A stretch of 64,000 nucleotides of DNA, from NCBI RefSeq assembly GCF_000494755.1, contig NC_022657.1, forward strand, positions 3,510,001 through 3,574,000, given 5' to 3'. The stretch is from Amorphoplanes friuliensis DSM 7358. Its GTDB lineage: Bacteria > Actinomycetota > Actinomycetes > Mycobacteriales > Micromonosporaceae. Below are positions 6,688 to 27,391 of this stretch, piece after piece. A model generated the notes under the pieces. It did not search any database. It saw only the letters and a list, made by a program, of their open reading frames with translations, and was not told the origin of the DNA. Numbering within the stretch: position 1 is the stretch's first letter; every line of letters starts with the position of its first letter. The position numbers were made by a program, and so were the translations under genes.

Positions 6688-6711
6688 CACCTCCCGAGGA
6701 GAACCCACCTG

Positions 6712-7824: not shown

Positions 7825-10601
7825 GCGCCGGTCCCTTCGACGCGCTCCGCGAGCAGCTGCTCGGCGCGGCCGAGGCGCTCGCCGGTGGGCCGGCCGCCCT
7901 CCCGGAGATCCTCGCCGGCCTCGTCGACGACGTCGGTCTCGTCCTGGCCGAGCCCCTGGAGATCTTCCCGGTCTGTCACCACTCACCGGCGTCGGCGCTC
8001 GCCATGGTGCGGCGGCTCCGCGAGAAACAGCCCAAAGTCGTTTATCTGGAGCTCTGCGAGGACCTCGGACCGCTGCTCACCGAGCTGCGCAACTGCCGCC
8101 TGCCAGTGGCGTTGCAGGCGTTCGCCTCCGACATCGAGGGCTTCCCGCCGGAGTCGGCGCCGCTGAGCGTCATCGCGCCCATCACCGAGGCCTCCGCCGA
8201 ATACCAGGCCATCGCGTACGCCCTGGAGACGCCCGGCGTGGAACTCGTCCTCGTCGACCGGTCCACCGACCACGTGTTCCAGTGGCAACCGGTGCCCGGC
8301 GCGACCGCGGCCGATGCGGAGGAGCTGCACGGCGACGCCATCGGTGTCGAGCTCGGCGACCTGCGGCCCCGCTTCGCCGAGCTCGAGGAACACCTCCTGC
8401 ACCACGGCCGCGTCCGGCACTGGTCGGAATGGTGGGACCAGTTCGTCGAGCAGCCACTGGCCGGTGCCGACCACGAGACCTACCGGCAGGTGATGGTGCT
8501 GATCGGAAGCCTCTTCCGGCGCCTCGCCCCGCACGACTCCCAGCGGTACGACAGCGACGAGGACCGCGAACGCTACATGTGGACGCGCATCCGCGAGCAC
8601 CTCGCCGTCACCGGCACCGACCGCGCCGACTGCCTCTTCATCTGCGGCGCTTTCCATGCCGCGAGCCGTGTCCCCGAGGCCGGCTCGGACCCGTCGACAC
8701 CCGACTTCACCATCACTCCCCGCACCGGCAGCAAGTGGCTCTACGGCCTGATCCCGTCCAGCCACTCGGCGATCGAGGCGCAGTTCGGACTCGCACCCGG
8801 CTCCGTCTCCATCGCCGGCGCCACCTGGGAGAAGACCCTCGGCCGGACCCGCCTCACGCCGTTCCGGCTGGAAGGACAGAAGGGCGGCCGGAAACGTGCC
8901 GCCAAGGCGCTCCCGCCGCCCGCCGCCGACGCCGGTCCCGTCACCGACCAGCTCACCGGATATCTCTCCGCGCCCGCAGCGCTCGACGGGCTCGACGAGG
9001 AGGAACTGCGCGGCTGGTGCGTCGACATCGTCCGGCTCGCCCGCCGCAACGGATACCTGGCGAGCACCGCCGACGCCATCGCCGTTTTCGAGACGTCGAT
9101 CCTGCTCGCCGGGATGCGAGGCCGGGCGCGGCCGACCCCGTACGACTTCCAGGACGCCGCCGTCACCTGCATCGAGAAGGACATGGTCCCCGGCCGGCGC
9201 GACGTCCGCCGCCTCTGCGAGATCCTCCTCGGCGGCGACCGCACCGGCCAGGTCGGCTACGACGCGATGCCCCCGCTCGCCCGCGACGTCTACGACCGGC
9301 TCGCGCCGCTCGGCCTCAACCTCGAACAGCGCACCATCCAGCGGGCGCTGCTCGACCTCGCGTCCGGCCCGGAGCTGGCGGCGTGCTCCCAGCTGCTGTG
9401 GATGCTGCGCTACCTGCTGCCGGACCATGCCGTACGCCCCATCATGGGCTCGCGCCGCCTCGGCGAGACACCCATCCAGGAGAGCTGGGACCTCGACCTC
9501 GGCCGCCACCAGCGCACCATCATCGAACTGGGCTACGAAGGCGTCACCGTCGAACAGGTCCTCGAACAACGCTTGCGCCGCGCCGCCTGGGACCCGAAAG
9601 CCACCGCGGCGACGGCCCTGAAAGCCGTCGAGCACTCCCTGCTGTTCCTCTCCAGCCCCCGCCTCACCGACGACCTCGGCGCCCGCGCCGTCGAGCTGCT
9701 GTCCACCGAACGCGACGTCGACGAGGCCCCGGCCGTCCTGCGCCGCATCCGCCGCCTCCTGGCGTTCTACCGCGCCACCACACCGGCGCTGCCGGCCTGG
9801 TCGGAACGGTTCGTCACCGAGGGCTACGCCCACTACTGCACGCTGCTGCCCGTCGCGTTCGTCGAGGAGGAGACCGGCGTACGCCAGGTCGGCGCGATGC
9901 TCGGGTTCCTGTTCAGCATGGAAAGCCTGGCCTTGTCGCTGGGGTGTGACCGTACGCAGCTCGAACTGGCCGTCCGCCAGGCCCACCCCGAATCACCCGC
10001 CAAGATCGCCCTCCTCTGGGCGGCCCGCCACCAGCTCGGCCTCCTGCCCCTGGCCGACCTCCGCCACCGCGTCGACGACCTCCTCGGCAATCCGCTCGTG
10101 GTCCCGGCCTTCCCGCAGTACGTCAGCGGTTTTGTCCAGTCCCTGGAAGCGGTCCCGCGCCTCACCCCGTTTGTCGTCGAAACGCTGTCGAACGCCTTCG
10201 CCCGCCTCCCGGACCCGATCCTCCTGCCCTGGCTCCCCACCCTCATCACCACCCTCAGATCCCAGGCCGCCGAGCTGGTCCCGGTCCTCACCCGGGAAGC
10301 CGCCCGCACCTTCCCGGGCACCCTGACCGCCCTCGATGCCTGGACACCCCCGTGGCTGGCGCCGCAGCCGGCTGCTCGCGCCTCGTCACCACCGCCGGCA
10401 AACGCGGTGCTGCTCGCGAGCCACCCCGCGACGACGGATGCGGTGGCGGCCCTCCTCGGCTGCGAAGGGGACTGGTCGGTCGCCGCCACCGGGCCGGACC
10501 CGGGCACCGCCGTCGCCGAGCTCCTCGCCGCCCACGCCGAATCACCGTCAGCGATCGCCGCACTGCTCGCTGCCCCAAGCGGCGGAGGCGCCCGGGGTTA
10601 G
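7821..10601 (+). CDS. DUF5682 family protein, putative enzymatic effector of the vWA-MoxR system
   Basis: A large 926-aa soluble protein. The N-terminal 300 residues carry FPVCHHSPAS (about residue 52), YLELCEDL (about 80) and FICGAFHAA (about 275). This His/His...Glu...His pattern is what I associate with DUF5682 and the ChaN/EreA/TIKI-like metal-dependent hydrolase fold. The remaining 600 residues are mostly helical, with repeated Leu/Arg-rich segments, and may be a scaffold. The ATG at 7821 overlaps the MoxR stop; frames open further upstream are shadows of the MoxR gene. A hydrolytic effector activated by the MoxR-vWA pair would fit the context, but the substrate is unknown and catalysis is not demonstrated. 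Confidence 0.82.
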   Translation: MSAGPFDALREQLLGAAEALAGGPAALPEILAGLVDDVGLVLAEPLEIFPVCHHSPASALAMVRRLREKQPKVVYLELCEDLGPLLTELRNCRLPVALQAFASDIEGFPPESAPLSVIAPITEASAEYQAIAYALETPGVELVLVDRSTDHVFQWQPVPGATAADAEELHGDAIGVELGDLRPRFAELEEHLLHHGRVRHWSEWWDQFVEQPLAGADHETYRQVMVLIGSLFRRLAPHDSQRYDSDEDRERYMWTRIREHLAVTGTDRADCLFICGAFHAASRVPEAGSDPSTPDFTITPRTGSKWLYGLIPSSHSAIEAQFGLAPGSVSIAGATWEKTLGRTRLTPFRLEGQKGGRKRAAKALPPPAADAGPVTDQLTGYLSAPAALDGLDEEELRGWCVDIVRLARRNGYLASTADAIAVFETSILLAGMRGRARPTPYDFQDAAVTCIEKDMVPGRRDVRRLCEILLGGDRTGQVGYDAMPPLARDVYDRLAPLGLNLEQRTIQRALLDLASGPELAACSQLLWMLRYLLPDHAVRPIMGSRRLGETPIQESWDLDLGRHQRTIIELGYEGVTVEQVLEQRLRRAAWDPKATAATALKAVEHSLLFLSSPRLTDDLGARAVELLSTERDVDEAPAVLRRIRRLLAFYRATTPALPAWSERFVTEGYAHYCTLLPVAFVEEETGVRQVGAMLGFLFSMESLALSLGCDRTQLELAVRQAHPESPAKIALLWAARHQLGLLPLADLRHRVDDLLGNPLVVPAFPQYVSGFVQSLEAVPRLTPFVVETLSNAFARLPDPILLPWLPTLITTLRSQAAELVPVLTREAARTFPGTLTALDAWTPPWLAPQPAARASSPPPANAVLLASHPATTDAVAALLGCEGDWSVAATGPDPGTAVAELLAAHAESPSAIAALLAAPSGGGARG

Positions 10602-10905: not shown

Positions 10906-12375
10906 GTGGACACGTCCGCTACGCGTTCCGCGCCGGCCGCGGAGCCTGCTGTACCGAGTTCGCGGCGGCACAACCGGTTGTTGCTGTGGCTGTCCGGGGC
11001 CGACCTCGACACGCTGGCCAAGGTGCCGCGGGAGGCCCGGAAGTACGTCGGGCTCGGCGGGCTCGTGCTGACCACGGCCGTCCTGGCCATGGTGTCCGCG
11101 ACCTTCGCGTTGTACGTCGGACTGCGGGCGCCGGTGGTCGTGGCGTTGCTGGTCGGCCTCGGGTGGGGTCTGGCCATCATGAACATGGACCGCTGGCTGA
11201 TCTCAGCCGCTCAGCGGCAGCGGCGCTGGTACCTGAACCTCATGCTGACGACGCCCCGGCTGCTGCTCGCGCTGATCATCGGGACGGTGGTTTCCACGCC
11301 GATGGTGCTCTGGATCTTCAACCAGGAGATCGAGTCGGAGCTCAACATCGTGCAGCGGGAGCGGGACGCCGCTTACCAGGTGTCCCTGACGCAGGATCCG
11401 CGATTCCAGATCATTCCCGGTCTGGAGAAGAGCGTCGCCGAGAACCAGCGTGTTGTCGACGGCACGGCCCCCGCGACCAGCGCCGCCGCCGGCACCGAGG
11501 TGGGGCGGCTGCAGGAGCAGTTCGACAAGCTCGACAAGGAGTTCCAGGCCGCCCAGAAGGCCGCCACCTGCGAGCTCGACGGCACCTGCGGGACGGACAA
11601 GCCCGGCAGCGGCACGGCCTTCCGCACCAAACAGGACGTGGCCGACGAGCTGAAGGACCGCCGGGACGAGGTGGGGAAGCGGCTCGACACCGCCGTCGAG
11701 CGGGCGTCCGCGGCCGACGCCACCGCGTCGCAGAGTGCCCGGCGGTCCGCAGCCGACAATCTCGCCGCGGACAAGGCGCAGCTGGCGGGCCTGGTGGCTG
11801 AGCGGGACAGGCTGAAGGCCAGGCACGACGCGGACAGCGCCGAGAATCGCGGGCTGCTGGCGCGGCTGGAGGCGCTGAGCCACTTCACCAAGGACAACAG
11901 CACGCTGCGGTCGGCGTACGTTGCGCTCTTCCTCTTCATCACGGCGCTGGAGATCCTGCCGGTCTTCGCGAAGCTGCTGATGAACCTGGCCGCGCCGAGT
12001 CTGTACGACAAGATCGTCGGTCAGGCCGACGCCAAGGACGAGCAGACCGCACGGGCGGCGATCGATTACGAACACACGGCCGCCGTGCACTACATCAACA
12101 GCCGCGCCGAACGGGACCGGGAGGTCATCGACGACACCCGCGACCGGATGGTGACGCTGGAGGCCGACGTGTACCGCCGCACGATCGACCGCTGGCACGC
12201 CGACCAGGTCGGCCGCATGGCCGGCGAGGAGCGGGCGCCATCGGTCCGCGACCGGCTGGCGCGACTGACCGGGCTACCGCGTCAGACCCGCCCCCGCGCG
12301 GCGCGCGACCCCGGCCGGGCCGACGACTTCAGCCCGTTCCCGGAGCCCGAGGAAACCACCGAAGCCCCGCGCTGA
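10906..12375 (+). CDS. DUF4407 membrane protein with long coiled coil
   Basis: A 489-aa membrane protein. GTG 10906 is preferred because GGAGGG ends seven bases upstream; TTG 10900 would sit on top of it. Three hydrophobic segments lie in the first 130 residues (for example LVLTTAVLAMVSATFALYVG and LLLALIIGTVVSTPMVLWIF). A long Lys/Glu/Ala-rich coiled coil follows (about 125-325), then a fourth helix (LFLFITALEILPVFAKLLM), then a charged C-terminal tail. This layout is that of DUF4407 proteins. The coiled coil would lie between helices 3 and 4, probably outside the membrane. It follows the vWA-MoxR-DUF5682 operon on the same strand with a 304-base gap, so co-function is possible but not shown. 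Confidence 0.85.
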   Translation: MDTSATRSAPAAEPAVPSSRRHNRLLLWLSGADLDTLAKVPREARKYVGLGGLVLTTAVLAMVSATFALYVGLRAPVVVALLVGLGWGLAIMNMDRWLISAAQRQRRWYLNLMLTTPRLLLALIIGTVVSTPMVLWIFNQEIESELNIVQRERDAAYQVSLTQDPRFQIIPGLEKSVAENQRVVDGTAPATSAAAGTEVGRLQEQFDKLDKEFQAAQKAATCELDGTCGTDKPGSGTAFRTKQDVADELKDRRDEVGKRLDTAVERASAADATASQSARRSAADNLAADKAQLAGLVAERDRLKARHDADSAENRGLLARLEALSHFTKDNSTLRSAYVALFLFITALEILPVFAKLLMNLAAPSLYDKIVGQADAKDEQTARAAIDYEHTAAVHYINSRAERDREVIDDTRDRMVTLEADVYRRTIDRWHADQVGRMAGEERAPSVRDRLARLTGLPRQTRPRAARDPGRADDFSPFPEPEETTEAPR

Positions 12376-12406: not shown

Positions 12407-13018
12407 CCTTCAGGGTGAGGGTCGCGATGGCCGCGCCGGGCCGCGCGGTTCGTGGGGTCTTTCAGGGTGAGGGTCGCGATGGCCGCGCCTGGCCGCGCGG
12501 TTCGTGGGGTCTTTCAGGGTGAGGGTCGCGATGGCCGCGCCTGGCGCCGCGGTTTGTGGGGTCTTTCAGGGTGAGGGTCGCGATGACCACGTCGGGCCGC
12601 GCGGTTCGTGAGGGGGTCCATCGGGGTGAGGGTCGTGATGACCGCGCCTGGCGCCGCGGTTTGTGGGGTCTTTCAGGGTGAGGGCCGCGATGACCCCGCC
12701 GGGCCGCGGTTCGTAAAAGGTCCATCGGGATGACGGTCGTGATGACCGCGCCCGGCGCCGCGGTTCGTGAGGGGGCCATCGGGATGAGGGTCGCGATGAC
12801 CCCGCCGGGCCGCGCGATTCGAGACGGGTCCATCGGGATGAGGTCGTGCCTGGCGCCGCGCGGTTCGTCAGGGTCCTTCAGGACCGAGGGTTGCGATGAC
12901 CGTGCCGGGCCGCGCGGTTTGTGAGGGGGCCTTCAGGGTGAGGTCGTGGTGACCGTGCCGGGCCGCGCGTGCTGTCAGGGGTCCATCAGGATGACGGTGG
13001 CGATGACCGTGCCGGGCA
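12407..13018. repeat. 12-copy tandem repeat, unit about 52 bp
   Basis: Copies begin with a C(C/T)(T/A)TC(A/G)GG motif at about 12407, 12459, 12511, 12563, 12618, 12670, 12722, 12776, 12830, 12875, 12930 and 12983. Spacings are 52, 52, 52, 55, 52, 52, 54, 54, 45, 55 and 53. Each unit contains GGTCGCGATGACC (inverted GGTC/GACC around GCGAT) followed by a GC-only block and GGTTCGTG. The last copy reads as coding sequence for the C-terminal residues of the minus-strand GAP1-like gene, ending at 12975. A 52-bp period is not a multiple of three, so the other copies do not extend that protein. Copies at the left are most alike, suggesting recent expansion there. The array fills the space between two convergent genes. 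Confidence 0.9.
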
Positions 13019-15341
13019 CTGTTCCGGGTTCGGCCTGAGCCTCGCGAACCCGTATGGGCGGGTTCTCCGGGAAGACGGGCCGCAGACTGGCAGCGATGAG
13101 GCTCGCCTGCTCCTCACCCTCGCCCAGCGCCGCTCCAGGTGCGGTCTGCCCGGTCAGGACCACAGCGATGACCAGCCTTCGCTGCTCGAGGTCGGTGCCG
13201 AGCTTGTCCAGGATGAACTGGCGGTGGCGTTCGCTCGGGTCCTGGGGGTTCAGCGGTGGTTTCAGGGTCCGCAGGGTGACGCCGGTCGGTCGGGCATCGG
13301 TCACCGGCTCGACCCGGGACGGTGCCTGAGAGGCGGCCACGGCGTTGTGCGCGACGGGTTTGTCGTCGCGCAGGGCCAGCAGAATCCCGGCCGCTACGAG
13401 GATCAGCGTCGCGCCGACCGCCACGGCGAAGGACCTGCGTCGCAAGAACGGTCGCGACTCGGGATCACCGTGGCGGCTCGTCAGCGGGACCTCGTCGTCG
13501 TCCGTGTCGGGTGAGCTCCGGTAGATCGCCGCGCGGCTCTCAGGAAATTCGGCACTTGGTGAGAGGTCTTCCCGCAAGCGTGCGGGGCCCCGGCTGTGGG
13601 TCACCCGCTGCCGCACCTCACCGACCGGCACCTGTTCCTGCTGCGCCTGAACCATCAGCGCGCGGACCTCGGCGGGCATGTCGTCGGTGACCGGTATCCC
13701 TTCGACGATGGCGTGCAGTTCCGGGTGGTTCCACAGGGTGGTCACACCCCGGGCCTGCAGGGCGGCGAGTCCTCCGTGGGTCACCGGCACCTGCAGGTCG
13801 CCGCGGTTGAGGTGGCTCAGTTTGGTGAGGAGGTCGGCCAGCCAGTCCGCGGGGGACGCTGCTCGGGAGACCAGGATGGTGGTCAGCCGGGCGACCTGGT
13901 CGCGGCGTGCCGCGGAGAGTTCGGGACGTCTCTTCGGGACCAGGAAGTCGATGAGGTGGGCGGCCTCGCCGGCGTCCATGGCGGTCAATCGTGAGGCGGC
14001 CTCGGACACGATCTGGAGACGGTCCTCGCTGCGTTTCAGCTCCGCCTTGGCGTCCTCGGTGAGGGTGCCGGCTTCGTTGATCATAGCGACGACGGCATCC
14101 GGCCGTGGAGGGTAGAGCCGGCCAAAAGTTCGGGGGGACAGCGAGAGCTTCTCCTGGAACCAGGTGTGGAGGGCGCGCAGGTCGCGGACGTCCGCCAAGG
14201 GACCGCCCGGTTCGGTGAGCTCCTCCAGATAGCGGGCGCGGTCCTTGGCCTGCCGGGCTCCCTTCAGCAGCATGGCGGCCAGCAGGTCTGCGAGGACCGG
14301 ATCGGGCGGCTCCGACGGTGTGGGGAAGCCGAGCACGTTCTCCGAGGTGGTGTCCTGCAGCTCCAGGAGCGCCTCGAACAGCTCGGTGCGTACCTTGGGG
14401 TCGTTCTGGATCGTCAGGCCGCGGCGGGCGGCGCGCCAGTCCAGCTCGACCCACTCGTGGAGCACGCGGGGGTCGTCGCGCAGCCTTTTCAGGCCGTTGG
14501 GCCAGAAGAAGGCGGCGGGCAGGTCGTGGACGGTGATCGGGAGCTCGTTGCGGGCGACGTGGTCGAGCACCGGACGCATGTCCTCGGCCGTGAGCAGCAG
14601 CGCCGGATCCAGCGCGATACCCGCTTGGGCGTACCGGGCGAGGTCGGGCAGGCAGCGGGCCAGCAACTCGCCGTCCTGCTCGTGGTGCAGGTCCGACGGG
14701 CGGGGTGCGGGGGTGCGGAAGTGCTGGGCCATGCGCCCGGCCATCACGCGGTCGCTGTGCTCGAACTCCGGGGGCCACAGACCGGCGATGACCCACCGGT
14801 CGGCCGCTTCGGGCCGGAAGAGGAGGCAGGTCGACCAGGTCCACTGGCGGGCGATCCGGGTGGGGACGACACGCAGCGCCGCCCCGATCACCGCCGCCGC
14901 CGTGGCCGGGTCGTTGCCGACGGGGAGCCGTGATTGCCGCCGGCAGACTCCGCCCAGCACGCCCTCGATCAGGTCGGACGGTGCCTGTGGGGCCACGGCG
15001 GAGTCCTCCGGCGCGACCTGTTCGCGGCCGAGCTCCCAGGCCTCCGCCGGGAGGACCTCGTCCGGGACAAAACCGAAGCGGCAGCCACCGGCGACGCCGA
15101 ACGGGCCCTTGCGGCCCTGCACCGCGAAACACCAGTGGCCCCGGCCCTCCACGTCGAGGTGGCGCAGGGTCCAGATCGGATGGGGGATGGTGGTCAGGAA
15201 CGCTTCCGGTGGCTGGCTGAGGTCGGAGCGCAGCAGCCGCTCGGCGACCGCCCAGTACGCCGGGGGTGCCGACTTCGGCTCGTGCCGGCTGAAGCCGGTG
15301 CCGGCCAGGTCGGCCCAGCGCACCACGATCATCTCCGTCAT
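12975..15341 (-). CDS. GTPase-associated protein 1 (GAP1)-like protein with C-terminal membrane anchor
   Basis: A 788-aa protein starting at ATG 15341, which overlaps the stop of the GTPase gene (ATGA). The N-terminal 160 residues (VVRWADLAGTGFSRHEPKSA, then PIWTLRHLDVEGRGHWCFA) resemble the GAP1 N-terminal type that accompanies P-loop GTPases in predicted bacterial conflict or signalling systems; I recall this family but cannot verify it here. A helical middle region runs to about residue 630. One membrane helix (FAVAVGATLILVAAGILLAL, about 638-658) follows, then about 130 residues likely on the other face, whose last residues (VPGTVIATVILMDP) come from a copy of the 52-bp repeat. It probably works with the adjacent GTPase at the membrane. 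Confidence 0.72.
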   Translation of the reverse strand: MTEMIVVRWADLAGTGFSRHEPKSAPPAYWAVAERLLRSDLSQPPEAFLTTIPHPIWTLRHLDVEGRGHWCFAVQGRKGPFGVAGGCRFGFVPDEVLPAEAWELGREQVAPEDSAVAPQAPSDLIEGVLGGVCRRQSRLPVGNDPATAAAVIGAALRVVPTRIARQWTWSTCLLFRPEAADRWVIAGLWPPEFEHSDRVMAGRMAQHFRTPAPRPSDLHHEQDGELLARCLPDLARYAQAGIALDPALLLTAEDMRPVLDHVARNELPITVHDLPAAFFWPNGLKRLRDDPRVLHEWVELDWRAARRGLTIQNDPKVRTELFEALLELQDTTSENVLGFPTPSEPPDPVLADLLAAMLLKGARQAKDRARYLEELTEPGGPLADVRDLRALHTWFQEKLSLSPRTFGRLYPPRPDAVVAMINEAGTLTEDAKAELKRSEDRLQIVSEAASRLTAMDAGEAAHLIDFLVPKRRPELSAARRDQVARLTTILVSRAASPADWLADLLTKLSHLNRGDLQVPVTHGGLAALQARGVTTLWNHPELHAIVEGIPVTDDMPAEVRALMVQAQQEQVPVGEVRQRVTHSRGPARLREDLSPSAEFPESRAAIYRSSPDTDDDEVPLTSRHGDPESRPFLRRRSFAVAVGATLILVAAGILLALRDDKPVAHNAVAASQAPSRVEPVTDARPTGVTLRTLKPPLNPQDPSERHRQFILDKLGTDLEQRRLVIAVVLTGQTAPGAALGEGEEQASLIAASLRPVFPENPPIRVREAQAEPGTVPGTVIATVILMDP

Positions 15342-17152
15342 GACCTGGCCTTTCCGAGTACCGCCAGCATCAGCTGGGTGAGGGCGGCGGATCGTTCGTG
15401 GGCCTGCGGGAAGCGGTCCCCGCCGACCAGAGGGGTGATCAGCTGATTGCTGGTGCTCATCGGTACCGTGCCGAGCGGCGAGCACAGGAAGAACTTGAGG
15501 GTGAGCCAGTTGTCGTGCAGCAGGCTGGCGATCGCGTCCTGGTGGCCGAGGCCGAACATGAGCCCGCAGCCCAGGGCGGACATCACCAGGTCACGCAGCA
15601 GCAGCCGGTGACCCGTCTCGGGGACCAGCGCCGCCGTCAGATGATCGGACAACGACGGCACGGACAGGTGCCAGCCCTGGAGGTTCATCGTGGGCCCGTC
15701 GGTGATGACGACCTCCTCGGCGCGGCCGCTGTGCACGAGGTTCCAGAAACGGGTCGGGTCGGAGTAGACCCGCAGCAGGCCGTCCGCGATGTGCTCGATC
15801 CGTTCCTGGCGGGCGACCGCCGACCCGGCGGCGCCGCCGTGCAGGTAGACCAGCAGCCCGGTGGCGGCCTCGTCGGCCGTCAGGCGTTGCTCGGCGAGCT
15901 TCCGCGCGGTCGTGAAGAGATACCGGGCGACACCCCGGCGTACGACGTCGGGCGCGCCCAGGTCGGTCAGCTTCTTGTTCCGCAGCGCCGCGTGGATCAG
16001 GTCGCACTTGCTGAGGGCGACGAACAGGTTGAGGTTCTGTTCGGGGCCGCGGGTCAGGATGCCGTCGATGAGGGTGAGCTGCCGGCCGATCTCGATCTGG
16101 AAATGGTCACGGTTGCCGCGGACCACCTTGTGCCCCGAGGACTCCGAGGCGCCCGGGCGCAGGCTGCCGTCGAGCATCATCGGATAGTCGGTGACGTCCG
16201 GCAGGCTGTCCGCCACCAGCCAGTCCAGGGCGTTGGCCGCCACGACCGGGTCCACCACCCACAGCAGCGAGTCGAAGCCGCGCAGCTTGCCGGCCTCCTG
16301 CGGCTGGGTGTCGTCGGGGTTGAACAGCTCGCCCGGCAGGTCGGCGACGCCGGTCCAGAACCGCCGGCCCTGGCTGTCCGTCCGCAGGACCAACGGCTGC
16401 CGGAAGTTGCGGCCCCATTCCTCGGCGCGGCGCTGACCGTCCACCACCGTCTTGAAGACCAGCTGGCGGATGCCGTCCTCCAGCGCCGACGGCAGGGCGC
16501 GGTCGAGGATCCCGACCGGTTTGCCCTCCTGCTCGGTGTTCGTCGGAGGGATCGGGTGGCCCTCGGACACGGTGCGTTTGTACCGTTCGGCGCGGACCGC
16601 CAGCGGCATGCGCTCCAGGGGGGTCAGCTGCCGCAGCCGGACCCGGCCGCTCGCGCCGGAACTCAGGTCGAACCCGTCCGGGGTGTCGAGGTTCTGGTGG
16701 AGCATGCGGACCAACAGGTAGGTCTTGCCGCTGGCCGGGGCGCCGATGGCCGCCACCATGTTCCAGCCGTCGATGCGCTGGGCGTTCCGGAGGTGGCCGC
16801 CGCCGGCCTGGTCGAAGACCGACACCACGTCGGGAAAGATGTGCCCGCCGCCGCAGAGCAGGTACGTGTACTCGACCTCCTCGGCGATGAACCGTGGTGT
16901 GGTCGACGTCAGAGGTTCGTAGGGCAGACCCGACGCGTTGACCGACAGCACGGTGACCCGCCAGGAGTTGCGGTTCTCGGCGTCGGCCGGTCCGACCTCG
17001 AGACGCATCGACGGTGGCAGCTTGAACCGTCCGGTCGCCCGGTCGAGCTCCAGGTCGACCGCGCCGAGGGCGGCCCCGCACACCGGGCAGGTGTTGCCGA
17101 AGCGGTTCACCGACTGGTCCGGCACGGCCGGGCGTGTCCTGCGGCCGAACAT
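15338..17152 (-). CDS. TRAFAC-like P-loop GTPase with N-terminal Cys pair (DO-GTPase2-like)
   Basis: A 604-aa protein. ATG 17152 overlaps the stop of the 98-aa gene by one base. The order is: a CPVCG Cys pair near residue 23 (half a zinc ribbon), a beta-rich region, a Walker A/G1 motif GAPASGKT (about 136-143), a Walker B/G3-like DLPGE (about 270) and a base-specificity G4-like SKCD (about 382). The combination GxxxxGKT / DxPG / xKxD argues for GTP rather than ATP. A weakly hydrophobic segment lies near residue 545. Similar proteins paired with GAP1 are called double-GTPase 2 in comparative work, as I recall. It is probably the signalling switch of the operon; its stop overlaps the GAP1-like start. 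Confidence 0.78.
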   Translation of the reverse strand: MFGRRTRPAVPDQSVNRFGNTCPVCGAALGAVDLELDRATGRFKLPPSMRLEVGPADAENRNSWRVTVLSVNASGLPYEPLTSTTPRFIAEEVEYTYLLCGGGHIFPDVVSVFDQAGGGHLRNAQRIDGWNMVAAIGAPASGKTYLLVRMLHQNLDTPDGFDLSSGASGRVRLRQLTPLERMPLAVRAERYKRTVSEGHPIPPTNTEQEGKPVGILDRALPSALEDGIRQLVFKTVVDGQRRAEEWGRNFRQPLVLRTDSQGRRFWTGVADLPGELFNPDDTQPQEAGKLRGFDSLLWVVDPVVAANALDWLVADSLPDVTDYPMMLDGSLRPGASESSGHKVVRGNRDHFQIEIGRQLTLIDGILTRGPEQNLNLFVALSKCDLIHAALRNKKLTDLGAPDVVRRGVARYLFTTARKLAEQRLTADEAATGLLVYLHGGAAGSAVARQERIEHIADGLLRVYSDPTRFWNLVHSGRAEEVVITDGPTMNLQGWHLSVPSLSDHLTAALVPETGHRLLLRDLVMSALGCGLMFGLGHQDAIASLLHDNWLTLKFFLCSPLGTVPMSTSNQLITPLVGGDRFPQAHERSAALTQLMLAVLGKARS

Positions 17153-17448
17153 CAGGCGATCGCCTTCACCAGGAGGACGACGACCGCGGCGACCGCCCAC
17201 AGGCTCAGACCGGCGCCGGCACCCAGGCCGATGCCCCACCACTTGCCGACCGCCGCGGCCTTGGCGAAGTAGCCGGCCACGGCACCCTCGACCGGTTCGC
17301 GGACCGCCTCCGGGGTGTTCTCCCCGTTGGTGAGCCAGTAGCTGAACTGGTATTGGAGCGCGTCGAGTGCCTCGCCATTGCCGTACTGCCGGCGTACCTG
17401 GGCGCGCATCGCTTCACGCCCGGGGTAGGCCATCTCCGAGACGTCCAT
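17152..17448 (-). CDS. Small single-pass membrane protein
   Basis: A 98-aa protein with a soluble N-terminal part of about 65 residues (many Gln, Tyr and Arg) and a C-terminal membrane helix (about 68-96, LSLWAVAAVVVLLVKAI). The layout suggests an anchor with the N-terminal part in the cytoplasm. ATG 17448 directly abuts the stop of the kinase-like gene, with no spacing. The gene overlaps the GTPase start by one base, so it is an integral operon member. No family was recognised. It could be a membrane tether or activator for the GTPase or the kinase. Confidence 0.75.
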   Translation of the reverse strand: MDVSEMAYPGREAMRAQVRRQYGNGEALDALQYQFSYWLTNGENTPEAVREPVEGAVAGYFAKAAAVGKWWGIGLGAGAGLSLWAVAAVVVLLVKAIA

Positions 17449-18852
17449 TCACATCCCCCATCCCGTCACGTCGAAGAGCACGACGATCAACACGGCTGCA
17501 AAACCCAGGAGGACCAGTCCCGCGTACCGGGCCGCGGTGCGTGCCGCCACTCGCTGGCTCTGCCGCTCCAGCAGGCGGTTCGCCTCGTTCTGCAGCTCGA
17601 ACTGGGAATGGGGACGCTGCCGCAGGGCGGTCCGGAAGAGGGCGATGTCGTCGGCGTACGGGTCCGGATCGACCCAGCCGGGCGGCCGGGGCGCCGGGGT
17701 CTCCGCACCGGACGGCACCGCCTGCCGGAGACGGCCGAGCCAGCCGACAGCCCACGGCCCGGTGTCCTCGACGGACCTCCCGGCCTCCCCGGTACGTCCG
17801 AACGGCTCGGCCAGCACGGTGATGAGCTCCTGCCAGTGGCTCTCGCGCCAGTGCTGCCGCAGGATCCCGGCGACGGCCTCCGCGGAGTCGACGGGTCGTT
17901 CGCCGTTGTCGGTGCGCAGCAGCCGTTCCATGCAGTCGCGCCCGGCGAGCGCGGTGAGCAGGACCAGCGCAAAACCGAACCTGTCCTGGGCGCGCAGCTC
18001 ACCGGGGTCGTACCGCAGTCCGTCGGCGAGGCGGGGCCGGCGCAGGTAGAAGTCGGGTGTCGGCAGTTCCGGTGGCGGCTGGCCGGTGGGCGTACCGGAG
18101 TCGGTGTCGACCAGGACAAATTCCCGGGCGCCCGGGATGAGGTAGACGCACACGTTGTCGGGGCGGATGTCGCAGTGCGCCCAGCCCAGGTCGTGCAGTT
18201 TGTCGAGTCCGGCCGCCATCGACGCGAAGTGGTTCAGGTGCTCGATCGCCGGGGTGGGGCACCACGGGTCCCACGGGGGACGGATCAGCAGCGGGGACAC
18301 GGCGAGCAGGTAGAGGCCGGAGTTCGAGGGATGGTCCTGGAACCACAGCGGCAGTGTCCGCATCGGCCGCTCGGCGACGACCAGCGCATCCACCGGGGCG
18401 CCCAGCCGGGTGGCGACGTCACCGGCCCGGTCCTCCTCCCCGCTGCCCCGCACGATCTGCACCGGGGTCACCGCCCACGGTGGCTCGATCGGGATGCGGG
18501 TGCGTCCGGGGACCGCCGCGTTGGCCTCCTGCAGGGCGACGGCCTGCCGGTGCAGGTAGTCGCGCATCGCGTCCACGTCGGCCTGCTGACACTGGTAGAT
18601 CTTGACGAACCAGTCGTCCCAGCGTGCCGAGGCCTCGCCGGAGAACTTCACGGTCCGGCCCCGCGTGTACGCGACCGTCGCCAGGACCTTGCGCCCGTGG
18701 GTATGCACCTTGTCGCCGGGCAGGGAGAAGTAGACCTGCCGGGACTCGCCCAGCTGGTCGCCGGGCTCGTGGACCGGTGGAGCGATCGTCACCTCGGCCG
18801 ACCAGCCGGTTCCCCGGAGCACGATGGGCAGTTCGGTGTCCAGCGACGGCAC
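17449..18852 (-). CDS. Protein kinase-like protein with C-terminal membrane anchor
   Basis: A 467-aa protein. A beta-rich N-terminal region precedes DWFVKIYQ, whose Lys (about residue 90) fits the kinase beta-3 lysine. The catalytic loop is HCDIRPDN (about 226-233; HRD is changed to HCD, catalytic Asp and metal-binding Asn kept). VDTDSG near 247 stands in for DFG, with its Asp kept. A glycine-rich loop is not obvious. One membrane helix lies near the end (about 440-462). The key residues suggest a functional, atypical Ser/Thr kinase, or a pseudokinase if the loop is absent. Start is GTG 18852, three bases after the preceding gene. It lacks extracellular PASTA domains, unlike PknB. Confidence 0.75.
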   Translation of the reverse strand: MPSLDTELPIVLRGTGWSAEVTIAPPVHEPGDQLGESRQVYFSLPGDKVHTHGRKVLATVAYTRGRTVKFSGEASARWDDWFVKIYQCQQADVDAMRDYLHRQAVALQEANAAVPGRTRIPIEPPWAVTPVQIVRGSGEEDRAGDVATRLGAPVDALVVAERPMRTLPLWFQDHPSNSGLYLLAVSPLLIRPPWDPWCPTPAIEHLNHFASMAAGLDKLHDLGWAHCDIRPDNVCVYLIPGAREFVLVDTDSGTPTGQPPPELPTPDFYLRRPRLADGLRYDPGELRAQDRFGFALVLLTALAGRDCMERLLRTDNGERPVDSAEAVAGILRQHWRESHWQELITVLAEPFGRTGEAGRSVEDTGPWAVGWLGRLRQAVPSGAETPAPRPPGWVDPDPYADDIALFRTALRQRPHSQFELQNEANRLLERQSQRVAARTAARYAGLVLLGFAAVLIVVLFDVTGWGM

Positions 18853-18855
18853 GGC

Positions 18856-19566
18856 TCAGACCCTCCGATCGACGCGGTAGGTCAGCCGGGTGGAGACGGC
18901 GCTGTCCGCCCGCGAGAAGACGATGCTGCCGGTCTCGCCGGCCGTCACGAGGTACCCGGGTTCCAGCCGGAGGCCGTCCACTTCCACGATGTACTCCGGG
19001 CGTTGCTCGGACCGGCACACCTCCGTGTCACCGAGCTGGTGCCGGACCTCCAGCAGCACCCCGCGGGGCACGGCCTGCACGGTTTCCGGGATGAGGTACC
19101 CGCTGCCGCGCTGGGCCGGGATGCTGCGCCCCAGCGGGACCCAGTCCGGGCCGGACACCAGCGGGAAATCCCAGCGCAGCGAGCTGCCGTACGAGAGCCG
19201 CAACGTCCGGCCGGAGTCGGGCCGGCGCTGCTGCGGCGGCCGTGTCTGCTCGCTGCCGGGGATCGGCGGGGTGACCTCGAGGCGGTACCCGGGTGCGCCG
19301 AGCCGTGGCTGGACGGGGAACCGCACGTCCACGGCCCGCGCGCGGACCAGGCGGCCGGCGAAGATGTCGGCCTGGCGGCGGATCTCCACGGTGACGAGCT
19401 GCAGCGCGGACGCGGTGACGAGCTGCGCCTCGATCACCGTTCCCCGCAGGTCGAGCCCGGGGGTGCGGTGCGCCCGCTCGCAGTATTCGTGGAAGGCGCT
19501 CCGGAAGTACGCCAGCACCTCGGACTCGAAGGCCCGCTGGTCGTCGGCGGACAGGGCTGGTGTCAT
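18856..19566 (-). CDS. Hypothetical 236-aa protein of the SEDS-PBP operon
   Basis: No family was recognised. ATG 19566 overlaps the stop of the SEDS-PBP gene (ATGA), and the frame runs open further upstream only as a shadow. The first 110 residues look helical with some strand (a VIEAQLVTASALQLVTVEIR-like segment). A proline-rich linker with PPQQRRP follows, then a beta-rich C-terminal half (short strands with Gly/Pro turns) reminiscent of a small beta-sandwich or receptor domain. No signal peptide or membrane helix is visible. Its place between a wall-synthesis enzyme and a kinase suggests an adaptor or kinase substrate; this is position-based inference. Confidence 0.7.
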   Translation of the reverse strand: MTPALSADDQRAFESEVLAYFRSAFHEYCERAHRTPGLDLRGTVIEAQLVTASALQLVTVEIRRQADIFAGRLVRARAVDVRFPVQPRLGAPGYRLEVTPPIPGSEQTRPPQQRRPDSGRTLRLSYGSSLRWDFPLVSGPDWVPLGRSIPAQRGSGYLIPETVQAVPRGVLLEVRHQLGDTEVCRSEQRPEYIVEVDGLRLEPGYLVTAGETGSIVFSRADSAVSTRLTYRVDRRV

Positions 19567-22500
19567 CGGCTCTCCACGATCGCCTTGGCCAGGGTGCTGG
19601 TGACGTGCCGGGCGCGTCGGCCGCCGGCCTGCTGGTCGCGGGTCTCCATGACCACGGCGAAGGCGACCGGTCCCCGGGGCGTCTCGAGCCAGCCGGCCAC
19701 CCACGAGTTCTGCCGGACGAACTCACCGGCCGGCAGCGGCTGGTCCTGCGGTACGAGCTCGTGGGTGCCGGTCTTCACCCACAATTTCGTACCGGCGGCG
19801 GTGGCCAGCCCCGCGGCGGTGCCGGTGGTCGCGGTCAGCCGCAGGGCGTGGCGCAGTTTGGTGTCGGCGGCGGTGCTCAGCGCGCGTTCGCCGGCACCGG
19901 ACGGGGTACCGGACCTCAGACCGGACGACGGGTCGACGACCTCACCGACCAGCCGCGGACGCACCAGGGTGCCGCCGTTGGCCACTCCGGCGAACACCGA
20001 CGCCATGCCCAGCGGGGTGCCCGACACGTCCTGGCCGCCGAGCGCCCGGTTGCCGATGGCGATGTCGTCGCTGGTCGCCGGGACACACGTGGGTGCGGCG
20101 CCGGGGACGCCGCCGTCCGGGCGTACGGGATCCGTGGCCGGGCAGGAACCGACCCGGAGGCCGAAGCGGGCTGCCTGGGCGGCGATCGCCGGCCAGCCCA
20201 GGCGCTGGGCCAGACCGACGAAGGCGGTGTTGCAGGAACCCGCGAGGGCCCAGGTCAGGCTGATCATGTCCGCCTCGGCGCCGGTGCAGGGACCCCCGCC
20301 GGCGTTGCGGATCCGGACGGTGCCGGACAGCGCGAGCTGCTGCGGCGCCGGCAGCACCGGCGCGTCGACGTCCGCGTCCGGGTTCTCCTCCAGGTACGCC
20401 GCAGCCGTGATCACCTTGAAGGTGGAACCGAGCCCGTACTGCTTGCCGACGGCCCGGTTGATGTGCGGGTCCGGCAGGCGTACCGCCGTGTCACCGTCCA
20501 CGTAGCGGCGCAACTCCGCTTCCCGCTCCGGTGCCGCCGGTGGTGGGACGGCGTAACTCCAGAGCCAGCAGCCGCGCTGACGTTCCACCTCGGTGGTCCG
20601 GCTCGTGCAGCTCGGGTCGTGCTGTTTGTCCGTGAGTCGGCCGCCCTCGGACGGCCGGTTGTAGTGCCGGTGCTCGGCCGAGAAACTGCGCCGCGCCTCC
20701 TCCGGCACGGGTGTCTTCGTGATCACCGTGGCGGGTTCGGCGGGTGCGGTGGCCGCCGCCAGGATCCGCCCGGTCCGCGCTTCGAGCACCACGAGGCCAC
20801 CGGCGAGCGGGCCGTCCGTGCCAGGATCCCGCAGAGCCGCAGCGGCGAGGTGCTGGAGCCGGGGATCGATGGTCAGGTCGAGCCACCCGTCCGCGTCACC
20901 GGTACGCGGTGGCGGCAGCAGGCGGCGGCGCAGGTCGGTCCCGGCCGAACCGTTCAGGACCCGGGCGTACGCCTGGTCGAGCACGCCGGACTCGCCGGTG
21001 CCGACGCGCAGCAGGCCGGCCATGTCCGCCTCGGTGAGGTCGCCGGCGGCGCCACCGTCGAGGCGGTGCCACGTCCCGGCCGGGCGCTCCTGGCGGAAGG
21101 CGGGCTCCCCGCCGAGCCGGATGTCCACCCGCGTCCGCAGCACGGCGATCTCGTCGGTCGAACAGCGGGCGGCATCGGGCGGCGGGGAGGTCAGGCCCTC
21201 CACGGTCGCCTCGCGGGCCGGGCACGGGGGCCGCTTCTGGTCGTGGCCCATCCCGATCATGGCGGGGGCGGGGTAGGGGACCAGGGTCACCGCGATCGTC
21301 AGCAGGACGCACCAGGCCATCGCCGCGGGCCCCCACAGCCGGCCCTGGACCGCGACCGGCGCCACCCCCGCCGCCCGGGGCGCGTTCGCCGCCAGCGCCA
21401 GCACCACGATGATGCCGATCAGGAAGGCCAGCGTGGACTGCCCGCCCCGGGAAAGCAGCGGCGCGGGCACGCCGGAGTGCGGCACCAGGTTGACCGTCGC
21501 GGACAGCACGAACAGGAACTGACCGACCAGCATCGTGGCCATGCCGGCCGCGAACAGCGTGGCCGCGTTGACCCCGGGCCGGGCGCTGCGCACGGCCCGG
21601 ACGACCGCGACGCCGAGCAGGATGGTCAGCCCGGCGCAGGCGAGCACGGCCAGGCCGCCGAGCTTGTTCCACATGACGGCGAGGACGAAGTCGGTCGCGC
21701 CGGCGGGCACACGACCCGACGCGGTGTCGGCCAGCCCGTGCCCCCAGAGCCCGCCGTCCGCCACGGCCGACAACGCCGCGGCCACCTGGGACCGCTGACT
21801 CTCGGTGTCGGCCAGCAGCGACCGCTGACAGGCGATGACGTTCTCGGGCAGCAGCGCCGCGCCGCCCGCCCCGGCCTGCGGCACGGGCGCACACCCCGCT
21901 CCCCACCGGTACGCCCAGGGATCGAGCCAGACCTGGCCCCGCTCGCCGATGTACCCGGTCCAGAAGAGACCGATCACCGCCAGTGGCAGCACCGGCAGCG
22001 CGATCATGAAGTAGAAGCGGTAGCCGGCCGCCATCCGGCGCAGGTTGCGCGAAAAACGGGCGGGTGCCGGGCCGGAGCCGAAGTCCGGCCGGTCGGCGAC
22101 GTTGGACCAGGTCGCGGCCCACGTCACGCCCAGTGTCACGGCGAACGCGGCGACCAGTGTGCCGAAGTCGCTGCGCAGCCCGCTGGCCACGACGATCACG
22201 CTGAGCAGGGCGAGTGGCTTGGCCATCACCATGGTGGTGGAGTGCAGCGCCGGCCGGTGCCACGGTCGCGTCGCGGGCCGCCGGATCAGGCTGCTGTCGA
22301 AGAAGTCCCGATCGGCCGCGACCAGACCGGCGACCACCGCCAGCAACAGCAGCTTGCCGTACTCCGGGGTGGCGACGCCCAGGAAGACGAGCGGGGTCGC
22401 CTGGTCACCACGGTCGGCCAGCGGCAGCAGGAACGGGACCGCCACGACGGCCAGGACGACGGCGGCGAGCGTCCGGTTGGCGCGGATGCCGCGGGCGCGC

Positions 22501-23075
22501 ACGACGAGCCGGTCCCACCGGCCGCGCGCCCAGGTGGTGTCCCGGCCCAGCACGGCCAGCACAGCGGCGACACCGCCGAGCGGCACCAGCAGGGACCAGA
22601 AACCCGCGCGTACGGCGTTCTCCGCGAACGCCGCGCTCACCGGCGCGTCCGGCTCGGCGACGATCACCAGGCGTACGGCCAGCAGCGAGCCGACCTCGAG
22701 GAGGACCAGGGTCGCCAGCAGCACACCCGACGCGGGACCGGCGATGGTGCCCGGGTGCGGCCCGGGGGACGACCGGCGCAGCAGACCACGGCCGAGGTGG
22801 GCCAGGAGCACCAGCAGGGCCGAGGTGACGGCGAGCCACGGGCCGTTGAGTGATCCACTGAGGAGGAAACCGCCGGCGATGAGCGCGGGCGGACCGTAGA
22901 ACGCGATTCTTTCCCGCATTCCGGCCCGTCGGCGCAACCGGCCGGTAATCGCGACCGTCACCATTCCGCACGCCCACAGAAGTCCTGCGAGAATCAGCAG
23001 ATTTGTCCGGCCGGGACCCGTGACCAGCGCCGCCAACCGTCTCCGCCCTTTCACCGCACCGCGAAACAAATTCAT
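19563..23075 (-). CDS. SEDS (FtsW/RodA) glycosyltransferase fused to class B penicillin-binding transpeptidase
   Basis: About 1170 aa from ATG 23075 (TTG 23153 is an alternative). The N-terminal two thirds is a many-helix SEDS polymerase with TPEYGKLLLL, SDFGTLVAAF, ATDFVLAVMWNKLGG and HSGVPAPLLSRGGQSTL, matching conserved FtsW/RodA positions. An extracellular part follows with a transpeptidase domain: STFK (SxxK, about residue 884), SCN (about 948) and KTGT (about 1100). SEDS and class B PBP are normally separate proteins that form a complex polymerising and cross-linking peptidoglycan; here they are one chain. The gene leads an operon with kinase and GTPase genes, recalling the rodA-pbpA-pknAB cluster of actinobacteria but rearranged. 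Confidence 0.88.
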   Translation of the reverse strand: MNLFRGAVKGRRRLAALVTGPGRTNLLILAGLLWACGMVTVAITGRLRRRAGMRERIAFYGPPALIAGGFLLSGSLNGPWLAVTSALLVLLAHLGRGLLRRSSPGPHPGTIAGPASGVLLATLVLLEVGSLLAVRLVIVAEPDAPVSAAFAENAVRAGFWSLLVPLGGVAAVLAVLGRDTTWARGRWDRLVVRARGIRANRTLAAVVLAVVAVPFLLPLADRGDQATPLVFLGVATPEYGKLLLLAVVAGLVAADRDFFDSSLIRRPATRPWHRPALHSTTMVMAKPLALLSVIVVASGLRSDFGTLVAAFAVTLGVTWAATWSNVADRPDFGSGPAPARFSRNLRRMAAGYRFYFMIALPVLPLAVIGLFWTGYIGERGQVWLDPWAYRWGAGCAPVPQAGAGGAALLPENVIACQRSLLADTESQRSQVAAALSAVADGGLWGHGLADTASGRVPAGATDFVLAVMWNKLGGLAVLACAGLTILLGVAVVRAVRSARPGVNAATLFAAGMATMLVGQFLFVLSATVNLVPHSGVPAPLLSRGGQSTLAFLIGIIVVLALAANAPRAAGVAPVAVQGRLWGPAAMAWCVLLTIAVTLVPYPAPAMIGMGHDQKRPPCPAREATVEGLTSPPPDAARCSTDEIAVLRTRVDIRLGGEPAFRQERPAGTWHRLDGGAAGDLTEADMAGLLRVGTGESGVLDQAYARVLNGSAGTDLRRRLLPPPRTGDADGWLDLTIDPRLQHLAAAALRDPGTDGPLAGGLVVLEARTGRILAAATAPAEPATVITKTPVPEEARRSFSAEHRHYNRPSEGGRLTDKQHDPSCTSRTTEVERQRGCWLWSYAVPPPAAPEREAELRRYVDGDTAVRLPDPHINRAVGKQYGLGSTFKVITAAAYLEENPDADVDAPVLPAPQQLALSGTVRIRNAGGGPCTGAEADMISLTWALAGSCNTAFVGLAQRLGWPAIAAQAARFGLRVGSCPATDPVRPDGGVPGAAPTCVPATSDDIAIGNRALGGQDVSGTPLGMASVFAGVANGGTLVRPRLVGEVVDPSSGLRSGTPSGAGERALSTAADTKLRHALRLTATTGTAAGLATAAGTKLWVKTGTHELVPQDQPLPAGEFVRQNSWVAGWLETPRGPVAFAVVMETRDQQAGGRRARHVTSTLAKAIVESR

Positions 23076-25739: not shown

Positions 25740-27353
25740 TCAGGTCGAGCTGCAGGTGGGTGTCAGCCCACCGCTGCTGCCGGTGGCCTGGAAACCGAAC
25801 TCGGTCGCCTGCCCGCCGCCGAGCCGGCCGTTGTGGGTGACGTTCGTGAACTGGACCGCGCCGCTGGTGCCGGTCCGGTTCGCGTTCCAGATGCCGGTGA
25901 TGGTGGCGCCGGAGGGCAGCGTCAGGCCGACGGTCCAGGCGCTGGTCCCGGCCGCGCCGGCCGTGACCTGGACCGTGGCCACGAAGCCGCCGGTCCACGC
26001 GTTGACCGAAACCGTGGCCACGCAACCTCCGGAGGCCGGCGGCGGGCCACTGGAAGGCGGCGGGCCGCTCGAAGCCGGAGGGGGCGTCGAGCCGAGCACC
26101 GGCGTCGGCCAGTCACGCCACTCGGCCAGGTTCCCGGCTGCCCGGCTGGAGATCCGCATCGTGCCGGCCGCGTTTCCCGTCCCCAGCAGGTACTTCTGGA
26201 TGTGCTGCTGCAGCGGCGTTCGCCACTCGGCCCGGCTGGCACAGTGCGTGCCGTCCGTGACGTCCGACCAGTAGGTGATGTTCGACCCGGCGCCGAGGGC
26301 CCGGTAGACCTCCGCACCGCCCAGTGCCGCCACACTCGCGGACTTCGGGCCCAGGTTCGCGATGTGCGGGTTGTCCATGACGAACAGTCCGCGCGGCGCG
26401 ACCATCGCCACCGTCTCGTGGGTGTCCACGGGCAGCCGTGCCGGACTGCCGGTGAAGGTGCCGAACGCGTCACCCAGCCACGGCTGTTCCCCGTACGCGC
26501 TGCTCAGGCTCTGTGCGCCCTCGCCCGGGATCCCGCGGAAGATCGGCGCGCCGGCGCTGCCGGACTCGATCGGCATGGTCAGGGCGATCCGCTGGTCGAA
26601 GGCGCCGGTGACAAAGGCGCCCTTGCCGAACCGCGAGCACCCGGTGACACCGGTGGCGTCCGCCTTCAGGATGCTGCCGTTCGACTGCTCGATGACGTCG
26701 ATGATCCGGCTGACGCCCCAGGCCCAGGCCATGAGCAGCCCGGTGCTGCTGGAAGCGCCGTAGATGCTGTAGAACGCGCCCTGTTTGTTGTTCCGCGGCG
26801 TGCCTTCCTTGCCCACCGCGTACGGGTCGTAGTTGATGACCGCGGCCCCGGCGGCCTTGATGGCGGCGGTGTCGGCGCCGAATCCGCCCAGGACGACCAC
26901 GGCCGGGAACGGCCCGGTCCCGCTGGGCAGTTCGACCCGGGCGGAGAAGCTGGAGCTCTTTCCGTTGTGCGCCACGTTCACGGAGATGCTGCTGCTCGAG
27001 ACCGTCCCGCTGACACTCGCGGGCTTGGCGGGCTTCTCGCCGTAGACGAACTTCTCGGCCAGCTTCTTGATCTCCGCCCGCCGGCACTGCCAGTCGGTGG
27101 CCGAGGTGATCCGTGTGCCGTTCAGCCGCAGGAACGGGTCGGGGAGCTTGGTGATGCTCGGCAGCGCGCCGGCCTCGGGAAGAGCCGGAACGGCGCAGCC
27201 GGCACCTTCGTCCTCCACGCCGGCGGCCAGGACGGCGGCCTCGGCGGGAGCGGTGACCGGTAGGAGCGTCGTCGCGCCGGCGACCGTGAGCGTTCCGGCC
27301 ACGAGCATGACGATCAGGGGATGGATCCTGGGGCGGCCCGAGCTGGTGGTCAC
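25740..27353 (-). CDS. Secreted glucuronoyl esterase-like (CE15) enzyme with C-terminal CBM2
   Basis: A 537-aa secreted protein. A signal peptide covers about residues 1-40 (hydrophobic LIVMLVAGTLTVAG, cleavage near AEAA). The catalytic domain has GCSRFGKGA with the nucleophile Ser near 239, as in CE15 4-O-methyl-glucuronoyl methylesterases, and DGTHCASRAEW with the catalytic His. A Pro/Ser linker (PPPSSGPPPASGG) leads to a CBM2 domain with conserved Trp residues (VNAWTGGF, IWNANRTG). CE15 enzymes cut ester bonds between lignin and xylan glucuronate, and CBM2 binds cellulose or xylan. Regulation by a CebR-like repressor is suggested by the palindrome at 27392-27405. Confidence 0.88.
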   Translation of the reverse strand: MTTSSGRPRIHPLIVMLVAGTLTVAGATTLLPVTAPAEAAVLAAGVEDEGAGCAVPALPEAGALPSITKLPDPFLRLNGTRITSATDWQCRRAEIKKLAEKFVYGEKPAKPASVSGTVSSSSISVNVAHNGKSSSFSARVELPSGTGPFPAVVVLGGFGADTAAIKAAGAAVINYDPYAVGKEGTPRNNKQGAFYSIYGASSSTGLLMAWAWGVSRIIDVIEQSNGSILKADATGVTGCSRFGKGAFVTGAFDQRIALTMPIESGSAGAPIFRGIPGEGAQSLSSAYGEQPWLGDAFGTFTGSPARLPVDTHETVAMVAPRGLFVMDNPHIANLGPKSASVAALGGAEVYRALGAGSNITYWSDVTDGTHCASRAEWRTPLQQHIQKYLLGTGNAAGTMRISSRAAGNLAEWRDWPTPVLGSTPPPASSGPPPSSGPPPASGGCVATVSVNAWTGGFVATVQVTAGAAGTSAWTVGLTLPSGATITGIWNANRTGTSGAVQFTNVTHNGRLGGGQATEFGFQATGSSGGLTPTCSST

Positions 27354-27391
27354 TGGGACCTCCTTCCGAAACTATCGGATGACAGCACGCA

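Follow-up and report, generated by a model that had tools for sequence, protein, structure and literature searches.

Why does a predicted peptidoglycan synthase lie in one tightly packed operon with a kinase, a P-loop GTPase and a GAP1-like membrane protein, and do these genes belong together? SEDS-PBP synthases build the cell wall and are antibiotic targets. The analysed window (64,000 nt of a 9.38 Mb genome) carries, on the minus strand between positions 12975 and 23075, six open reading frames in the order A-B-C-D-E-F: a SEDS-PBP fusion of RodA/PbpA type (gene A, 19563-23075, 1170 aa), a protein with a helix/strand N-terminal domain and a C-terminal FHA domain (gene B, 18856-19566, 236 aa), a divergent protein kinase with a C-terminal hydrophobic (transmembrane, TM) segment (gene C, 17449-18852, 467 aa), a small protein with a C-terminal hydrophobic (TM) segment (gene D, 17152-17448, 98 aa), a putative zinc-ribbon P-loop GTPase distantly related to DO-GTPase2 (gene E, 15338-17152, 604 aa) and a GAP1-like, membrane-spanning protein (gene F, 12975-15341, 788 aa). 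The junctions A/B, B/C, C/D, D/E and E/F measure -4, +3, 0, -1 and -4 bases, which confirms both the coordinates and the packing (genes overlapping, abutting or at most three bases apart) given in a preliminary description of this DNA. The six genes counted there are real; the unit, however, has a seventh member outside 12975-23075, a DUF4407 gene (10978-12375, plus strand, 465 aa, PF14362 with E-value 6.6e-82) that is convergent with gene F.

Relatives were sought in genome samples with one genome per species (355 genomes of the family and 395 of the class). A first scan of the genome contigs with a single sequence gave no match; a search with an alignment of the GTPase recovered relatives of E in 13 of the 355 family genomes and in two of the 395 class genomes (the host genome included). 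The SEDS-PBP fusion was found in 9/355 family genomes, all among the 13 GTPase carriers, and A was never encountered without the GTPase (Fisher p 3e-15, a value to be taken as a guide only, since species are not independent). At seven other loci (L014, L015, L031, L034, L036, L054 and L055), whose hosts include Dactylosporangium aurantiacum, a Micromonosporaceae MAG, Symbioplanes lichenis, Actinoplanes cyaneus and A. regularis, the order A-B-C-D-E-F is followed by the convergent DUF4407 gene, and variant cassettes occupy three further loci. One of the variants (L033) is cut by a contig end, with a match to A on another contig of the same genome; the next (L012, genome G102) holds B to F and DUF4407 and has neither A nor, in a search of the locus, any remnant of it, which indicates that A is not indispensable; in the third (L057), from another family of the same order, B and C form a single protein and DUF4407 does not adjoin. 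This B-C fusion, and two extra genes of no clear family that come after F in the place of DUF4407, were seen at L057:6231-8327 and 12827-14439. The dense packing common in such genomes could be taken to mean that unrelated genes separated by short junctions came together by chance, an explanation that can practically be discounted because the six-gene order is kept, mostly at 30-50% identity, between different flanks, and co-occurrence is strict. The six genes and DUF4407 are thus one conserved unit, as the preliminary description had supposed when it proposed looking for the gene order in relatives, and this cassette is accessory and patchily inherited.

The DUF4407 gene adjoins the operon in all 10 Micromonosporaceae cassette loci that were read (the window not counted); it is not limited to cassette carriers, as most Actinoplanes sampled hold a copy elsewhere, and the carriers have an extra one here. 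On the left, the cassette is flanked by a vWA(CoxE)-MoxR AAA-DUF5682 operon (3525-10601, plus strand), which recurs at 81-88% DNA identity in about half of the Actinoplanes sampled. At five other Actinoplanes loci with this operon the similarity to the window ends at 10.37-10.49 kb and other genes follow, which gives the six genes together with DUF4407 the appearance of a separate insertion; at one of the five, the right-hand gene (window 25740-27367) is only 3.1 kb off. Membership of DUF4407 in the vWA-MoxR-DUF5682 operon was rejected, given that these five Actinoplanes carry the operon with neither DUF4407 nor cassette beside it. A protein with an FGE-sulfatase (formylglycine-generating-like) domain is also encoded near the cassette (2583-3401, minus strand) and may be unrelated to it; domains of this kind are effectors in systems of the type described by Kaur et al.

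Both domains of the fusion proposed for gene A were found with Pfam: the SEDS domain (PF01098, E-value 7e-22, C-terminal half only, ~21387-21809, minus strand) and the transpeptidase (PF00905, E-value 3e-26, ~19599-20798, minus strand). A start at or near 23075 is supported by a similar segment (GPxxTNLLILxGLLW) that homologues keep upstream of their later called starts, which reflect the choice of a simple gene caller. Among solved structures the best scores went to M. tuberculosis PbpA (transpeptidase) and to RodA/FtsW (SEDS), and against the canonical-locus genes of the host genome the profile of A reached 131 bits with PbpA and 34 bits with RodA, with which it has the signature R-VWLDP in common. 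The aspartate of the TDF motif (Asp462, putatively catalytic, 21690-21692, minus strand) aligns by position with T. thermophilus RodA Asp255, and this loop (periplasmic loop 4) also holds Asp262 of E. coli RodA, a catalytic residue (PMC10449877). This aspartate, together with DxG, the ExxK of the QPSE helix and SxGG, is kept in 9/9 copies of A. In the same nine copies the Trp of the KLW motif (before the QPxE helix) is missing and the GEE glutamates (after TDF) are replaced by WNK or WSK, both features being present in the RodA and FtsW-type genes of the host genome; owing to these departures, polymerase activity of A is not assured. Conserved Cys pairs lie in an extra loop ahead of the TDF motif, and also beyond it.

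The transpeptidase motifs SxxK, SxN and KTG are present in the window copy (as STFK, SCN and KTG) and intact in five of the nine copies of A, this one included; in the remaining four they are gone. The four transpeptidase-less loci form, with L012 and L033, one clade (support 100, in a tree of 11 loci), and the simplest account would be that the transpeptidase was lost once and its remnant then changed more quickly. Between two members of this clade (L034 and L036) the C-terminal part is 62% identical and the SEDS part 76%, the reverse of what intact copies show, and this faster change of the C-terminal part indicates that SEDS is the part retained. Decay of catalytic motifs in homologues, which the preliminary description had named as an observation that would count against its reading, therefore concerns the transpeptidase of four copies, and it extends neither to the SEDS aspartate nor to the motifs of the operon-type GTPases nor to the kinase.

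Gene B, formerly listed as unknown, can now be assigned a fold: its AlphaFold model (pLDDT 82.6) ends in an FHA domain (approximately residues 115-236, corresponding to 18859-19224), the top Foldseek rows are all FHA (best E-value 6.4e-4) and VIA Z rises to 10.5. Gly146-Arg147, the GR of the FHA phosphothreonine-binding set, is invariant among B homologues; at the other binding sites, as read by eye from the alignment and not from a superposed structure, the SxxH region is apparently PRGxL and NG has become DG. An FhaA-type N-terminal domain was considered for B and rejected, having no sequence support. For gene C, the description as a membrane-anchored kinase with an HCD loop holds: its profile finds the catalytic loops of PDB kinases (E-value 4e-6), the HCD loop lies at ~18169-18177, a DxD-type motif is also conserved, and Lys84, Asp228 and Asp249 (the catalytic Lys, the HxD residue and the second metal-binding Asp) are invariant in 11 copies, as is Asp290. 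An origin of this kinase from PknA/PknB was not supported, its profile barely matching the PknA and PknB of the host genome. Gene D matched no Pfam family and is kept in position and sequence at nine other loci.

Gene E carries the motifs CPxC, GAPASGKT (the P-loop, ~16721-16744, minus strand), DLPGE and TKCDL, which are widely conserved among its homologues; DLPGE and CPxC agree with the conserved Glu and the N-terminal zinc ribbon expected of a TRAFAC-type DO-GTPase. In hhalign comparisons with DO-GTPase2 members it reached a probability of 95.5% and a score of 71.8 over 230 columns, where eight P-loop controls scored 25-37 and the reversed alignment 16.8, and it does not attain the DO-GTPase2 Pfam cut-off itself; judged by these profiles, E is a distant homologue of DO-GTPase2. 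Gene F, directly downstream, is weakly similar to GAP1-N2/M and collinear with it over 183 columns (score 32.4, as compared to a maximum of 22.8 in 40 shuffles); a GAP1-M match, below threshold, shows up in four of 11 F homologues, and GAP1-C was not detected in F. The earlier pairing of a P-loop GTPase with a GAP1-like membrane partner is upheld by these comparisons. The model of F (pLDDT 78.9) contains a helical solenoid, a TM helix at residues ~638-655 and, outside the membrane, an alpha/beta domain at 688-786; the GAP1-like N-terminal region spans residues ~1-210. This outer domain was considered as an OmpA-like peptidoglycan binder, but in structure comparison OmpA (Z 8.7) tied with chorismate mutase (Z 8.9), and several homologues do not conserve the domain.

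Kaur et al. 2020 (PMC7159879) predicted a conflict (counter-invader) role for DO-GTPase/GAP1 systems, and VMAP-C, EAD2, AAA and vWA number among the parts of the systems they describe. A link to such systems had been drawn in the preliminary description and finds backing in the homology of E to DO-GTPase2 and in the surroundings of E relatives. In Dactylosporangium aurantiacum (L017:8375-10780) a relative of E is fused behind a caspase (Peptidase_C14) domain, and at L013:8297-10495 one is fused to an N-terminal helix-turn-helix domain. At L018:2118-11640 and L016:2357-9954 relatives of E, accompanied by DUF4407, lie beside VMAP-C and MoxR-like AAA genes (at L018 with vWA and EAD2 genes too), an apparent hybrid of vWA-MoxR and GTPase systems; the L016 copy adjoins a complete SEDS-PBP cassette (L015). 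The host genome encodes, ~2.6 Mb away (L019:781-1926), a further P-loop protein, whose match to DO-GTPase2 is weak (E-value 0.001, below cut-off). The PADLOC library of defence systems gave no convincing match to the cassette, only weak matches to the kinase loop.

Reasoning from the observed composition, domains, motifs, linkage and co-occurrence, we tentatively favour, with slightly less than even confidence, the reading that A is an accessory, second peptidoglycan synthase gated by a GTPase/GAP1-like switch (E and F) and by a kinase-FHA relay (C and B), the products of which may form a physical assembly. Kinase C would be activated by a signal arising at the wall or membrane, with the outer domain of F, D or DUF4407 as possible receivers; phosphorylation by C would recruit the FHA protein B and set the state of the GTPase/GAP1 pair, and this state would release A to polymerise lipid II and, in the host genome, also to cross-link. 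The most likely purpose, which is a guess, would be emergency wall synthesis in response to stress or attack, either to repair the wall or to seal off compartments of the hypha. We base this reading on the conserved order with DUF4407 in the window and at seven loci with several different flanks, on the occurrence of A only together with E, on the SEDS Asp, DxG and SxGG kept throughout the copies of A, on its RodA signature and PbpA-type transpeptidase, on the invariant kinase residues, the FHA fold and the DO-GTPase2 homology of E, and on the retention of SEDS after transpeptidase loss.

The same genes might instead serve in conflict, A being a toxic effector that, once the switch has fired, consumes lipid II or lays uncross-linked glycan and thereby halts growth of the infected compartment. 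We consider this unlikely, although several observations point towards it: relatives of E occur in predicted conflict systems (the caspase fusion at L017, and the VMAP-C, EAD2, AAA and vWA neighbourhoods of L018 and L016), DO-GTPase/GAP1 systems are themselves predicted to act in conflict (PMC7159879), the distribution is patchy, and one clade has kept SEDS while its transpeptidase eroded, which would uncouple polymerisation from cross-linking. The transpeptidase is, however, intact in 5/9 copies of A (that of the window among them), PADLOC yielded nothing convincing, and no FNIII sensor protein was seen with Pfam in the six proteins. Equally doubtful to us is the notion of a conflict-type switch with peptidoglycan polymerisation itself as its effector, in which a dedicated RodA-like enzyme, in some lineages already devoid of transpeptidase, would polymerise lipid II on activation and so enclose or arrest a compartment of the hypha that has been infected; if true, this immune effector would belong to a class that acts by building and not by degradation.

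Alternatively, A could sense wall status or beta-lactams, its SEDS part binding lipid II and its PBP part becoming acylated, with the signal passing inward to kinase and GTPase in the manner of BlaR. That Trp and GEE are missing from the SEDS active site throughout the copies of A, that A is absent at L012 and that conserved Cys pairs lie in the extra loop and beyond would suit such a sensor; we nevertheless hold it to be improbable, given that the catalytic Asp and the other SEDS motifs are kept in every copy, that STFK, SCN and KTG are complete in five, and that the eroded PBP part of the other four argues against PBP sensing there. A developmental machine for septation, the sporangium or the spore wall seems very unlikely: mycelial genera, Actinoplanes and Dactylosporangium among them, do carry the cassette, and actinobacterial division is affected by wall enzymes that kinases and phosphatases control (PMC6554272), but the GTPase is confined to 13/355 and A to 9/355 family genomes, most members of the same genus are without the cassette, and its neighbours differ between genomes. 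Of the roles floated in the preliminary description, that of a sporulation machine, taken as a core function, fits poorly with presence in ~3% of the family.

In the accessory-synthase reading, a real coupling would offer a genetic handle on the gating of lipid II polymerisation by GTPase and kinase, and the natural series of loci (intact, transpeptidase-dead and synthase-less) makes the role of each half of A testable. The cassette joins the GTPase/GAP1 predicted conflict systems with SEDS-PBP wall synthesis, which are joined nowhere in the literature searched, and no experiments on GTPase/GAP1 systems or on the cassette were found there.

Among known systems, the GTPase-centric GAP1-N2/DO-GTPase systems of Kaur et al. 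2020 (PMC7159879) resemble the cassette in having a zinc-ribbon DO-GTPase2 homologue and, immediately after it, a GAP1-like protein that bears a C-terminal TM segment, as well as (especially in their actinobacterial kinase theme) a predicted active kinase in the operon and a membrane setting. Unlike them, the cassette has no FNIII protein, PP2C or vWA gene and no detected GAP1-C, its GTPase and GAP1 Pfam scores are all below cut-off, and it adds SEDS-PBP, FHA and DUF4407; the FNIII-repeat protein that accompanies GAP1-N2 systems had no Pfam match in the six proteins (the C-terminus of B being FHA instead), and FtsW, RodA, SEDS, penicillin and DUF4407 are absent from the main text of PMC7159879. 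Since the core pair is homologous, weakly so in the case of F, but the FNIII protein and GAP1-C were not found, the cassette would appear to be a related variant of these systems and not a plain member. With the pstP-rodA-pbpA-pknA-pknB-fhaA locus, a conserved growth and division locus of Actinobacteria (PMC6554272) that the host genome also has (as read from sequences and gene order), the cassette shares a RodA-type SEDS, a PbpA-type transpeptidase, a kinase and an FHA protein; it differs in that SEDS and PBP are fused, the kinase is only remotely like PknA/PknB, a phosphatase is missing (neither a PASTA kinase nor a PP2C phosphatase had a Pfam match among the cassette proteins), GTPase/GAP1 is added and the whole is accessory, not universal. 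Natural SEDS-PBP fusions are already known (PMC10449877) and likewise hold both enzymes in one open reading frame; in contrast to these, A is tied to a GTPase/GAP1/kinase/FHA cassette, has changed Trp and GEE positions and, ahead of the TDF motif, a longer loop with Cys residues, and has lost its transpeptidase in one clade. The literature searched contains no description of a cassette that unites a RodA-PbpA-type fusion with a DO-GTPase/GAP1-like pair, a kinase, DUF4407 and an FHA protein. The preliminary description had called control of wall synthesis by GTPase and kinase unusual, and this calls for a division: a kinase and an FHA protein beside wall synthesis are ordinary (PMC6554272, and the host genome itself), whereas the coupling of DO-GTPase/GAP1 to wall synthesis is the unusual part.
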